NCBI GenBank assembly: GCA_021816565.1
Contig: JAKAXN010000287.1
Span: 1 to 6,060 of the forward strand
Source: Actinomycetes bacterium
GTDB taxonomy: Bacteria > Actinomycetota > Acidimicrobiia > Acidimicrobiales > Palsa-688
Length of the DNA stretch: 6,060 nt
Direction of reading: 5' to 3'
A program made the translations under genes and the position numbers. The notes under the pieces were generated by a model, which saw nothing but the letters and a program-made list of their open reading frames with translations, searched no databases and had not been told where the DNA came from. Of this stretch, positions 2,687-5,861 are shown in pieces. Within the stretch, counting starts at the first letter, position 1. Each line of letters starts with the position of its first letter.

Positions 2687-3154
2687 TCAGCTCACGCTGT
2701 GGTGGCTCTCCTGGCGGTGACCTTCGGAGGGGCGGGTGTCGCCGTCGGCCAGACCGACGTGCAGGTGGGACCGGATGCCCTTGACCCCCGAGACCCGGGA
2801 CACGGCCTGCTCGACGGCTGCGGCATCGTCGGCGGTGGGCACGTCACCGTGCAGGAGGGCCACGTGCTTCTCCACCATCACATGGACGTGCGGCAGGTCC
2901 CGGCGCTTCTCCAGGCCGCCCAGCTCGGAGCGGATGCGGTCGGCCAGGATGTCGTCGGCGACACCCGGGTCCGGGCGGCGGCCGGCCAGCCGGTAGCTGA
3001 TCCCGTCGAGGCGCCCGGAGAGGTAGCGCAGGCGCCGGGCCGCGTCTTCGATCACATGGCAGGCCATGCGGTTGGTGTGGCTTCCGGGCCGCAGCAGCGC
3101 CGCCCCTCCGGCCACGGCCATCCCACCGGCGACCCGTCTCACGTTGATACGCAT
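2687..3154 (-). CDS. BON-domain protein
   Basis: The product has 155 residues. The N-terminus carries Arg residues and a short Gly/Ala-rich hydrophobic stretch (about 8-21), possibly a weak membrane anchor or signal. A helical, Arg-rich linker (32-60) follows. A single BON domain spans about 66-136: a helix (DDILADRIRSEL), then the strand HVHVMVEKHVALLHGDV, then a helix (AAAVEQAVSRVSGV) and a closing strand (IRSHLHVGL), which is the usual alpha-beta-beta-alpha-beta order with the central Gly. BON domains bind membranes or lipids and occur in osmotic-stress and envelope proteins (OsmY type). The tail (137-155) is polar and His-rich. It is the first gene of the leftward group, with an unusually strong ribosome site, followed after 29 bases by the HtrA-like protease. 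That points to an envelope-stress role by inference only. Confidence 0.83.
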   Translation of the reverse strand: MRINVRRVAGGMAVAGGAALLRPGSHTNRMACHVIEDAARRLRYLSGRLDGISYRLAGRRPDPGVADDILADRIRSELGGLEKRRDLPHVHVMVEKHVALLHGDVPTADDAAAVEQAVSRVSGVKGIRSHLHVGLADGDTRPSEGHRQESHHSVS

Positions 3155-3264
3155 CTGCGCTCCTCCTTTTTTCCCCTTCTAGACAGCTACCTGCCCGGAG
3201 ACTCCCCCCGCCAGAGGGCGAAGGTCCCTGTTGGGGCAGCCGGCCGGCGGGCCAGGGTCGGGGT
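3155..3264. promoter_or_regulatory. Divergent intergenic region, presumed promoters for both directions
   Basis: These 110 bases separate the leftward BON-HtrA-Rieske group from the rightward patatin-avidin pair, so both transcripts should start here. The region holds the only AT-rich patch nearby (about 3167-3181). I could not find a convincing -35/-10 pair on either strand, nor a clear operator palindrome. The regulatory role is inferred from gene orientation alone. Confidence 0.5.
3161..3168 (-). promoter_or_regulatory. Strong ribosome binding site for the BON-domain gene
   Basis: On the minus strand AAGGAGGA stands 6 bases before the ATG at 3154, preceded by a run of A. It is a near-perfect Shine-Dalgarno sequence, by far the strongest in the window, and it fixes the start of the BON gene. 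Confidence 0.85.
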
Positions 3265-4398
3265 GTGCTCAGCACCGTGCTCGACGTGTTCCGCCTGCGC
3301 CAGTACTTCGACGTGCTGGCCCGGGGCCGGGAGGTCCTGGCCGGCATCGGTGACGACTGGGGTTTCCTCAACGACGCCCGCCGGGCGCTGGTCCGCCTGC
3401 CGGGGGAGGGCGGCGGCGGCCCGGCCCGGCCACCGTTCCCGCCCACCGACCGCCTCGAGCTGCCCGCCCTCGAGGGGCGCCGGGTGGCGCTGATGGCGAC
3501 CGGCGGCAGCGGGGCCCTGGCGTCGGTGGTGGGCGCGGCCCGGGCCCTGGAGGAGGCCGGGGTGCGCCCGGCCGTGGTCACGCTGTGCTCGGGTTCGGCC
3601 CTGTTCGGCTTCCCGCTGGCCGCCGGGCGGCCCGCCGCCGAGGTGGCGGACTTCTGCCTGTCGCTGCGACCGGAGGACTACGTGGACGTGGACTGGGCGG
3701 CGCTGGCCCGCCTCGGCCCGACCGGGGCCCGGGGATTCGCCGGCATCATCCGGGGCGAGCGGCTGGAGGCGTCCTACCGGCGCCTCCTCGGCGACATGCG
3801 CCTCGGGGACCTGCCCATCCCGGCCTACGCGCCGATCTGGAACATCGAGAAGAACCACACCGAGTACCTGGGGTCGCGCACCTTCCCCGACGTGACGGTG
3901 GCCCGGGCGGTGCGCATGGCGGTTTCGCTGCCTCTTTTCATCGAGCCGGTGGAGCTGGCCGGCGGCCACTGGAGCGACGGGGGGATAGTCGACATCTTCC
4001 CGGTGCGGCCGGTGCTCGACATCGAGCCCCCGCCGGATGTGGCGGTGGCGGTCAACGGCTTCTACCCGCCCGGCTTCGCCGGCGAGGACGCCTCCGGCTG
4101 GGAGGACCGCCGGGCCAGCATCCTGTACGTGGCCAGCCAGGTCCGCACCTGCCAGCAGGTGGAGCTGGCCCGGGCCAACCTGGCCCGGCTGAAGGAGCGG
4201 GTCGAGGTGGTGGCCATCGAGCCGGTCCCCTACAGCAAGGTGCGCGGCGTGGGCTTCTACCGGCAGTTCCTGAGCACGCGGGACTGGGCCGGTTTCATGC
4301 TGGCCGGGCGGTCCGAGACCCGCCGGGCGCTTCGCTCCAGGTACGGCCCCGCTGGGCACTTCGGCCCTGTACCGGCCGGGGACGGCGCGCTTAGTTGA
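3265..4398 (+). CDS. Patatin-like phospholipase/acyl hydrolase family protein
   Basis: The product has 377 residues. Patatin-like enzymes are Ser-Asp dyad lipid acyl hydrolases. Visible parts in order: a glycine-rich oxyanion-type loop ATGGSGAL (78-85) with the helix ASVVGAARALEEAGV; a nucleophile elbow VVTLCSGSALFG with probable S109; and a DGG motif in HWSDGGIVDIFPV with probable D238. The elbow reads L-C-S-G-S where G-x-S-x-G is expected, and the oxyanion loop lacks the usual Arg, so activity is uncertain. Between them AVRMAVSLPLFIEPVEL resembles the family's ARATSAAP-FF segment. There is no signal peptide or membrane segment. GTG 3265 is the first start after an in-frame stop (3145-3147), with only a weak ribosome site; GTGs at 3277 and 3286 are alternatives. 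The stop lies 4 bases before the avidin-like gene, suggesting co-translation. Confidence 0.8.
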   Translation: MLSTVLDVFRLRQYFDVLARGREVLAGIGDDWGFLNDARRALVRLPGEGGGGPARPPFPPTDRLELPALEGRRVALMATGGSGALASVVGAARALEEAGVRPAVVTLCSGSALFGFPLAAGRPAAEVADFCLSLRPEDYVDVDWAALARLGPTGARGFAGIIRGERLEASYRRLLGDMRLGDLPIPAYAPIWNIEKNHTEYLGSRTFPDVTVARAVRMAVSLPLFIEPVELAGGHWSDGGIVDIFPVRPVLDIEPPPDVAVAVNGFYPPGFAGEDASGWEDRRASILYVASQVRTCQQVELARANLARLKERVEVVAIEPVPYSKVRGVGFYRQFLSTRDWAGFMLAGRSETRRALRSRYGPAGHFGPVPAGDGALS

Positions 4399-4402
4399 GG
4401 GC

Positions 4403-4780
4403 ATGACGACAACCACCGCAACGAGCGTCCCGGTGGCCCAGGTGGCCCTGGCCGGGACCTGGGTGAACCAGTACGGATCGCAGCTGACTCTCGAAGTGGA
4501 CGGCCACGGCTCCCTGCGCGGCACCTACAGCTCCGGGTTCGGACCGCTGGCCGGTCGCACCCACCGGCTGCTCGGCCTCTACGACGTCCCCGACGGGCCG
4601 GCCGTCCTGCTCTCGTTCCTCGTCGACTGGACCGAGGCCCACTGTGTGACCGCCTGGTCGGGGCAGTGCTTCGTGGAGGAGCAGGAGATCCGCACCACCT
4701 GGCTCATGACCAGCGAGACCGAGGCGGGCGACGACTGGAAGGCCACCGTCATCGGCCACGACGTGTTCCACCGGTCGTAG
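4403..4780 (+). CDS. Avidin/streptavidin-family biotin-binding protein, no visible signal peptide
   Basis: The product has 125 residues and is almost entirely one avidin beta-barrel. By hand alignment to streptavidin these biotin contacts are kept: N22 (N23), S26 (S27), Y42 (Y43), S44 (S45), W76 (W79), T83 (T90), W85 (W92), W100 (W108), W112 (W120) and D120 (D128). Signature strings are GTWVNQYGS, GTYSS, TAWSGQ, TTWLMTS and DDWKATVIGHD. W112 matches the Trp that reaches into a neighbouring subunit's site, so an oligomer is likely. Differences: the loop after W76 is about four residues shorter than in streptavidin, S88 is replaced by C81, L25 by Y24, and C89 sits where avidin has C83 (GQCF). 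The barrel begins at about residue 17 after a Thr-rich start, with no signal peptide, so the protein appears cytoplasmic. GAGG two bases before ATG 4403 may serve as ribosome site. It directly follows the patatin-like gene. Confidence 0.94.
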   Translation: MTTTTATSVPVAQVALAGTWVNQYGSQLTLEVDGHGSLRGTYSSGFGPLAGRTHRLLGLYDVPDGPAVLLSFLVDWTEAHCVTAWSGQCFVEEQEIRTTWLMTSETEAGDDWKATVIGHDVFHRS

Positions 4781-4803
4781 GGCCGGCGGGCCCGAGTCCG
4801 GCC
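4781..4803 (+). terminator. Possible hairpin after the avidin-like gene
   Basis: GGCCGG (4781-4786) can pair with CCGGCC (4798-4803) across an 11-base loop that itself contains GGGCCC. It begins directly after the avidin stop codon. No T-run follows, so termination here is only a possibility. Confidence 0.25.
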
Positions 4804-4846
4804 GGGCGTTCCATCCAGCGGGCTGACGGAGCGGGCCGGGCCGGGA

Positions 4847-4871
4847 GGGGGCGTGCTAGGAAATGTCCCCC
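4847..4871 (+). promoter_or_regulatory. Leader inverted repeat before the MaoC-like gene
   Basis: GGGGG (4847-4851) and CCCCC (4867-4871) could pair across a 15-base loop that holds AGGA, the only ribosome-site-like sequence before ATG 4873. The loop also contains TAGGAA (4857-4862), a weak -10-like hexamer with no matching -35. The rest of the 92-base gap (4781-4872) shows nothing else convincing. No recognised steroid-regulator (KstR-type) palindrome was seen. Confidence 0.2.
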
Positions 4872-4872
4872 A

Positions 4873-5445
4873 ATGGGCAGTGTCGAAACCGACGACCCGG
4901 CCGGGGGGCTGCGAGAGGCGCTCGACGAGTTCGTCGGGCGGCCGCTCGGCGACGAGGGACCGCACCACGCACCCGACCCGGTCAACGCCGCCATGATCCG
5001 CCACTGGGCCGCGGCCTTCGAGGACGACAACCCGGTCTACACCGACCCGCAGCGGGCGGCGGGCACCCGCTTCAGGGGGATCGTGGCCCCGCCGGCCATG
5101 CTGCAGACCTGGACCATGGCCACCCCGAGGATCACCGGGATCGCCGAGCGGGGCGGCTCACCGGTGGAGCAGCGCGCCGACGGGCTGCTGCCGGTGCTGG
5201 ACCGGGCCGGCTTCACCGGGACGCTGGCGTCCAACTCGGAGTTCGAGTTCGAGAGGTACCTGCGCCCCGGGGAGACGGTCACCTCCGAGGCGGTGGTCGA
5301 GTCCATCTCCGAGGAGAAGCAGACCAGGCTGGGCCCGGGCTATTTCGTCACCTGGGTGACGACCTACCGGGCCGGGGACGGGGAGGTGGTGGGCCGGCAC
5401 CGGTTCCGGATCTTGAAGTTCCAGCCGCCGGCCGGCCCGTCGTGA
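4873..5445 (+). CDS. MaoC/FAS1-dehydratase-like hot-dog protein, ChsH2 N-terminal half-like
   Basis: The product has 190 residues. A single hot-dog domain of the MaoC N-terminal (FAS1-dehydratase-like) type is marked by IRHWAAAFEDDNPVYTD (42-58), then GIVAPPAMLQTW (69-80), then a second half with EFERYLRPGETVTSEAVVESISEEKQTRLGPGYFVTW and RHRFRILKF. The catalytic His of active hydratases (D-x-N-P-x-H) is Tyr here (Y56), so this subunit is probably non-catalytic and shapes the acyl-CoA site beside an active partner. That matches the N-terminal part of mycobacterial ChsH2 in cholesterol side-chain degradation, whose C-terminal DUF35 domain is encoded here by the next gene. The ATG at 4873 is the only good in-frame start; its AGGA ribosome site is 11 bases upstream. 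The stop overlaps the next GTG by four bases (GTGA). The exact substrate is inferred. Confidence 0.85.
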   Translation: MGSVETDDPAGGLREALDEFVGRPLGDEGPHHAPDPVNAAMIRHWAAAFEDDNPVYTDPQRAAGTRFRGIVAPPAMLQTWTMATPRITGIAERGGSPVEQRADGLLPVLDRAGFTGTLASNSEFEFERYLRPGETVTSEAVVESISEEKQTRLGPGYFVTWVTTYRAGDGEVVGRHRFRILKFQPPAGPS

Positions 5446-5861
5446 GCCCGGCCGGGACCCCCCAGCCGCCGGCGCCGACGGTCACGCCCGACACCGCCTT
5501 CTTCTGGGACGGGGTGGGCCGGCACCGGCTGCCCATCCAGCGCTGCTCCGGCTGCGCCACCCTGCGCCACCCGGCCCGGCCCATGTGCCCGCACTGCCAG
5601 TCGACGGAGTGGGACAGCATCGACGCCTCCGGCCGGGGCCGCGTCTTCAGCTTCGTCATGCCCCGCTACCCGGTGTACCCGTGGTTCGACCACCCCTACA
5701 TCGTGGCGCTGATCCAACTCGAGGAGGGCGTCCGCATGGTGTCCAACCTGATCGACTGCCCCCCGGAGGAGGCCTCCATGGGCATGGAGGTGGAGGTCAC
5801 CTACCGGGAGTTCGACGGCGGCCTGGTGCTGCCCCTGTTCCGCCCGGCGGGCCGGCCGTGA
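5442..5861 (+). CDS. DUF35 zinc-ribbon/OB-fold acyl-CoA-associated protein, ChsH2 C-terminal half-like
   Basis: The product has 139 residues. A Pro-rich linker-like start (2-16) leads to TAFFWDGVGRHRLPIQRC, the usual DUF35 N-terminal helix that docks on a thiolase. A rubredoxin-like zinc ribbon follows with C35, C38, C49 and C52 (C-x2-C-x10-C-x2-C), then an OB-fold (about 58-135) with GRGRVFSFVM, HPYIVALIQLEEGVRMVSNLI and MGMEVEVTYREFDGGLVLPLFRP. DUF35 proteins bind acyl-CoA and pair with thiolase-like enzymes. The ChsH2 DUF35 domain pairs with the Ltp2 aldolase that removes the last three side-chain carbons of steroids. The GTG start overlaps the previous stop (GTGA), and its own stop overlaps the next GTG in the same way, so all three genes are probably translated together. 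The family is certain; the steroid role is inferred from neighbours. Confidence 0.9.
   Translation: MSPAGTPQPPAPTVTPDTAFFWDGVGRHRLPIQRCSGCATLRHPARPMCPHCQSTEWDSIDASGRGRVFSFVMPRYPVYPWFDHPYIVALIQLEEGVRMVSNLIDCPPEEASMGMEVEVTYREFDGGLVLPLFRPAGRP

Follow-up and report, generated by a model that had tools for sequence, protein, structure and literature searches.

The window, the 6,060-nucleotide stretch of contig JAKAXN010000287.1 (Acidimicrobiales) that was analyzed, encodes on its forward strand an avidin-family protein of 125 amino acids that carries no signal peptide (4403..4780, +; ATG at 4403, stop codon ending at 4780). On the same strand, just 4 bp separate the avidin ATG from the end of an upstream patatin-like phospholipase gene (3265..4398, +; PF01734, E 2.3e-18). 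Downstream of avidin follow the genes for a FAS1_DH/MaoC-type dehydratase (4873..5445, +; PF13452, E 8.8e-17) and a ChsH2-type zinc ribbon/OB-fold protein (5442-5861; PF01796 and PF12172), which probably constitute a separate acyl-CoA unit. Farther upstream, a DUF2231 and Rieske domain protein (599-1522, -) and an HtrA-like protease with trypsin and PDZ domains (1560-2657, -) are encoded on the opposite strand. The usual patatin motif is G-x-S-x-G; the patatin-like protein has SGSAL in its place and DGG further on, and its activity is uncertain. Neither a sigma-70-type promoter (scan of 3100-5000) nor a tRNA was found.

The original prediction of an avidin-family gene at these coordinates was borne out far beyond chance. 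The product matches the PF01382 profile (E 2.7e-25; 89.4 bits against a curated Pfam cut-off of 24) and streptavidin entries in the PDB (e.g., 1lcz_A, E 5.8e-19), has ten close database homologues (55-86% identity), and is folded in the model into the eight-stranded antiparallel barrel typical of streptavidin. As far as the fold model can tell, it is a genuine avidin with the streptavidin barrel fold. A sequencing or gene-calling artefact was rejected because nine of the ten close homologues share the leaderless start, the tenth (P0010) being cut off. Phage or plasmid cargo was discarded as well, since the search of a phage collection gave no avidin match and only two Streptomyces plasmid matches, at 37.6% identity, were obtained.

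Compared with the Streptomyces avidinii streptavidin (L007), which served as residue reference, the protein keeps N23, S27, Y43, S45, W79, T90, W92, W108, W120, and D128 (streptavidin numbering), and thus the residues that bind the biotin ring. The claim that nearly all streptavidin contacts are conserved therefore holds for the ring and wall contacts, but not for the carboxylate end, where N49 is replaced by P48 and S88 by C81. Other changes at the tabulated positions are L25 to Y, A46 to G, V47 to F, A50 to L, L110 to M, and L124 to V. N49 contacts biotin via its backbone NH, which a proline lacks, and S88 is equivalent to Ser75 of avidin and bradavidin. The hydrogen-bonding residues at the N23 and S27 positions (PMC8776744) are retained in the segment from N22 to S26 (4466..4480, +) and occur in 132 and 131 of 133 aligned leaderless avidins, respectively. 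W85, W100, W112, and D120 (4655..4762, +), which correspond to W92, W108, W120, and D128, are likewise kept, in 133, 132, 132, and 132 of the 133 sequences. The L3,4 binding loop S44-G51 (SGFGPLAG; 4532..4555, +) carries P48 at the N49 position, and G47 and P48 are invariant in all 11 members of the close clade; the codon for C81 lies at 4643..4645 (+), and Cys is found there in 10 of the 11 close-clade rows. Both N49 and S88 of streptavidin are described as hydrogen-bonding biotin (PMC8776744), and Ser75 of avidin as bonding its carboxylate (PMC5398887).

Across the leaderless avidins, 130 of 133 sequences preserve the complete set of six core contacts (positions 23, 27, 92, 108, 120, and 128), an indication that biotin binding has been retained; the exceptions are P0081, which is cut off, L041, and L043. 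N49 is kept in 1/133 and S88 in 80/133. This residue table does not include the 21 Streptomycetaceae loci, seven of which carry Ser at the N23 contact, so even the ring grip is not untouchable. The seven (L077, L079, L080, L082, L083, L085, and L086, all leaderless) read GDWYS where streptavidin has GTWYN. The N49 position is occupied by T in three of eight exported controls, and N49 alone is therefore weak evidence. Since both carboxylate-end positions vary across the family, N49 also among exported controls, they bear on affinity or ligand rather than on family membership. Taken together, kept ring contacts and changed N49 and S88 point to a strongly conserved ring grip with a relaxed carboxylate end. 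Judged by these residues, the protein is very likely to hold the biotin ring, and it very probably binds biotin overall. It probably forms a tetramer: the W120 equivalent (W112), the one tetramer-related feature checked, is present, and its Trp counterpart in avidin and bradavidin reaches the neighboring subunit's binding site (PMC5398887). One class/order homolog (L041, genome G565) is very diverged (branch length 2.96), lacks the equivalents of S27, W108, and D128, and may no longer bind biotin.

The barrel opens with G-T-W from residue 18, and the N-terminal segment of 17 residues ahead of it (4403..4453, +) contains no Lys or Arg; residues 8-16 are predicted to be helical, and residues 1-4 were modelled with low confidence. 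Upstream of the ATG, the reading frame stays open for 43 codons, overlapping the patatin gene, and the three start codons scored (ATG, GTG, and TTG) do not occur among them, on which ground an alternative upstream start with a signal peptide was rejected. Export was assessed by a simple hydropathy measure, not SignalP: the best mean Kyte-Doolittle value of any 12-residue segment, taken over all starts at most 70 residues from the barrel. By this test the avidin reaches 1.42 against 2.0-2.85 in all 16 exported controls, of which 13 come from Streptomyces and three from proteobacteria, and so lacks a Sec signal peptide of the kind found in exported streptavidins. The predicted absence of a signal peptide from a barrel beginning about 17 residues in was thus upheld. 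In the class and order, all 13 assessed avidin loci are leaderless with best segments of at most 1.32: ten (L010, L034, L035, L036, and L038-L043) score 1.28 or less, L068 at most 1.32, L069 has a single start three residues from the barrel, and the avidin of G646 scores -0.73 (L037, absent from the gene calls and the residue table, with the N-terminus taken from L027). A 14th match, in G1008, has two internal stops and stands outside the 13. The counts leave out L047 (two internal stops), the fragments L089, L096, and L098, and L090, a false match.

A similar picture was obtained from database homologs, the best 120 of 177, although this set leans toward leaderless proteins because the queries were leaderless themselves. 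The N-terminus set comprised 122 sequences (the avidin at 4403..4780 and 121 homologs), of which 120 were scored; P0010 and P0081, in which the barrel start is missing, were left out. Among these best-listed homologs, 118 of the 119 scored have lower values than any exported control. The remaining homolog, P0092 from Dactylosporangium, is the only one of the 120 scored sequences with a value of at least 2.0, and 113 of the 120 have no more than 25 residues before the barrel. Values of 1.4-2.0 were found for P0009 (1.72), P0042, and the avidin at 4403..4780, which accordingly is among the higher-scoring leaderless proteins. If close homologs had all carried signal peptides, a cytoplasmic location would have been called into question; the reverse was seen, with 7-17 residues before the barrel in nine of the ten (P0010 being cut off). 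With no upstream start and leaderless close relatives, the protein can be expected, with little doubt, to stay in the cytoplasm.

Such a state is not unusual among bacterial avidins. The premise that most of them are exported is contradicted by a survey from 2021 that gives predicted signal peptides for approximately 50% of putative bacterial avidins (PMC8033661), and by the Streptomycetaceae draw, in which the whole PF01382 family was searched in 249 genomes and 18 had a match. Fifteen of these genomes contain only leaderless intact avidins (21 loci, best segment 1.21), while the sole exported case is G002 (S. avidinii, the center of the draw) with two exported avidins; of the other two, one has only a fragment and one a false match to another protein. 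Owing to the use of the whole Pfam family, this draw leans less toward leaderless proteins than the homolog set. A rarity of leaderless avidins is thus not supported. In one genome of the draw (G1195), a second avidin frame is split in two (L096 and L098) and apparently broken, with an intact copy (L088) elsewhere.

Carriers are patchily distributed: avidins were found in 1 of 396 phylum genomes (the center itself), 11 of 397 order genomes, and 6 of 395 class genomes, in overlapping draws that include their centers and with at most 10 or 11 candidates scored per genome (alignments A4 and A1). This patchiness suits an accessory trait. A profile scan of the genome contigs with the close-clade alignment (A1) retrieved no relative, and no genome of the phylum, class, order, or Streptomycetaceae draws had a close-clade match. 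In a tree of 72 rows, the avidin falls into a 33-row set without exported controls (SH-aLRT 95), in an alignment of few columns that left 29 forks open and raised a long-branch warning. Two of the homologs (P0005 and P0061, among the best 120 of 177) are labelled Acidimicrobiales, and the word stem "acidimicrob" is absent from the main text of PMC8033661; members from this order therefore widen the described reach of leaderless avidins.

Among characterized proteins, streptavidin shares the fold and the ten contacts listed above, but is exported with a signal peptide, has N49 and S88, and possesses a longer loop after W79. The leaderless "avidin/streptavidin family proteins" of Streptomyces and Kitasatospora resemble the protein in lacking a signal peptide and in mostly keeping the core ring contacts; they differ in identity (34-41% in seven labelled rows), usually have four residues before the barrel, and occupy a separate part of the tree. 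Tamavidins 1 and 2 of the fungus Pleurotus cornucopiae are cytoplasmic like the predicted protein (PMC6238071), are placed in a cluster with the streptavidins (PMC8033661), and tamavidin 2 matches the avidin at E 5.6e-18. They differ in being fungal and in having reported biotin binding and toxicity to grazers (PMC6238071). Titles and abstract openings in the open-access literature searched revealed no work on what a bacterial avidin does in the cytoplasm.

The fungal proteins suggest what such an avidin might do. Tamavidins are reported to be toxic to Caenorhabditis elegans, an Acanthamoeba, and Drosophila, and nematode numbers under tamavidin 1 fell to less than 4% of the control, while tamavidin 1 did not harm the E. 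coli or the fungus expressing it, for which a lack of free biotin in the producer cytoplasm was suggested as an explanation (PMC6238071). For one of two model organisms, however, Table 1 of the same article enters tamavidin 1 as nontoxic. Since tamavidin 1 is harmless to its producers yet toxic to nematodes, a stable leaderless avidin could accumulate in the cell and take effect once the cell is lysed or ingested. Our best overall reading, to which we assign a probability of roughly 0.45, is that of a cytoplasmic, probably tetrameric biotin binder acting as an antinutrient. The protein would be kept in the cytoplasm, where the streptavidin-barrel tetramer would grip biotin by its ring and the tryptophan walls and leave the carboxylate end relaxed. 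It would be stored as a stable biotin sponge and reach its target on lysis of the producer or when a bacterivore feeds on it. To go by the fungal tamavidins, the producer would be spared since little of its own biotin is free. By this analogy, a defence role taken separately is tentative, with odds somewhat short of even.

The original prediction had supposed that an intracellular high-affinity biotin binder would compete with the cell's own carboxylases. The nontoxicity of tamavidin 1 to its producers (PMC6238071) puts this cost in question, and a cytoplasmic biotin binder, if the analogy applies, is not necessarily a burden to the cell. Against this stands the statement that the known eukaryotic avidins are secreted, perhaps to avoid toxicity (PMC8033661), a view with which the cytoplasmic tamavidins fit ill. 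Of the further suggestions in that prediction, a lower affinity or a different ligand may hold, both carboxylate-end contacts being changed. Release by lysis, which the same prediction had offered as an alternative, would fit the fungal precedent best. The changes at the carboxylate end, however, may make the protein bind free biotin less tightly, and it would then be a poorer sponge. No conserved defence-related neighbor of the avidin genes was found at the loci compared, where contexts differ between subgroups.

The main rival of the antinutrient reading is a housekeeping one, unlikely as it appears to us: the avidin might buffer or store scarce cytoplasmic biotin and release it to biotin protein ligase, mainly in organisms that do not make biotin. 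Biotin carboxylase domains and BioB were searched in 12 of the 14 class/order carriers (all except G565 and G1008) and in eight of the 15 Streptomycetaceae carriers. All 20 encode biotin carboxylase domains. BioB exceeded the cut-off in 3/12 class/order carriers against 50/97 other order genomes (carriers G001 and G430 excluded), but this difference is not significant (Fisher p 0.13, genome completeness not given) and serves as a hint rather than a result, and all eight tested Streptomycetaceae carriers have BioB over the cut-off. In G790, a gene for the biotin transporter BioY lies tail-to-tail with the leaderless avidin, 117 bp apart (L069, 8410-8979 + and 9097-9531 -), which fits a housekeeping role better than defence. 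However, BioY adjoins the avidin by position in only 1 of 20 carriers, so a conserved biotin-gene neighborhood was rejected, and the patchy distribution even within the order also speaks against a general store.

Less probable still is an avidin, likewise cytoplasmic, whose pocket is tuned not to free biotin but to its amides (for instance the biotinyl-lysine of carboxylases). P48 and C81 replace both carboxylate-end contacts while the ring contacts are kept, and the near-absence of N49 from the leaderless avidins and the loss of S88 from many of them agree with such tuning; the T at the N49 position of exported controls and the 60% of leaderless avidins that keep S88 do not. Streptavidin itself, moreover, binds biotin amides. 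The protein-bound cofactor is the amide form of biotin (PMC6394990). We consider it equally improbable that the leaderless actinobacterial avidins as a whole form a functionally distinct branch that grips the ring, leaves the carboxylate end open, and works inside cells, either on the protein-bound biotin of holo-carboxylases or by storing biotin for later release, instead of being secreted to scavenge free biotin. Avidins with more reversible or amide-selective binding could come from this group, provided that the relaxed carboxylate end is real.

Export after all, by a signal that is weak or non-classical and lies within the 17 N-terminal residues, which end in A-L-A before the barrel, is a highly improbable alternative to the cytoplasmic antinutrient. 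The N-terminus is indeed more hydrophobic than those of the 13 leaderless class/order loci, and its relative P0009 scores higher still, but the segment is short and free of Lys and Arg, every exported control scores at least 2.0, and only seven residues precede the barrel in the close relative P0007 and four in most Streptomyces relatives.

The patatin and avidin genes are possibly co-translated. A search of 298 genomes of the order yielded four close full-length patatin orthologs (65-71% identity; a fifth match, with 57% identity in G590, runs into a contig end and stands outside the four). The 11-14 kb surrounding each of the four contain no avidin match, and none of the 13 other class/order avidin loci has a patatin match (9-18.5 kb each). 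Across these loci, the patatin gene is not a conserved partner of avidin, and a conserved operon of the two was rejected. That the avidin works with the upstream enzyme as a two-gene unit, as the 4 bp spacing on one strand and the reported role of cytoplasmic lipases as fungal anti-nematode proteins (PMC10512399, where neither patatin nor avidin is named) might suggest, is on these counts the least credible of the readings.

No neighborhood common to all modelled avidin loci was found. Three of them (L010, L035, and L036) share the order of a divergent ClC-type channel gene, avidin, a further gene, and an alpha/beta hydrolase; the gene after avidin is transglutaminase-like in L010 (Pfam) and looks alike by eye in L035 and L036. 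The avidin of L034 lies between GNAT and MFS genes, and that of L040 has an enoyl-CoA hydratase and a TPP-enzyme domain in its vicinity.
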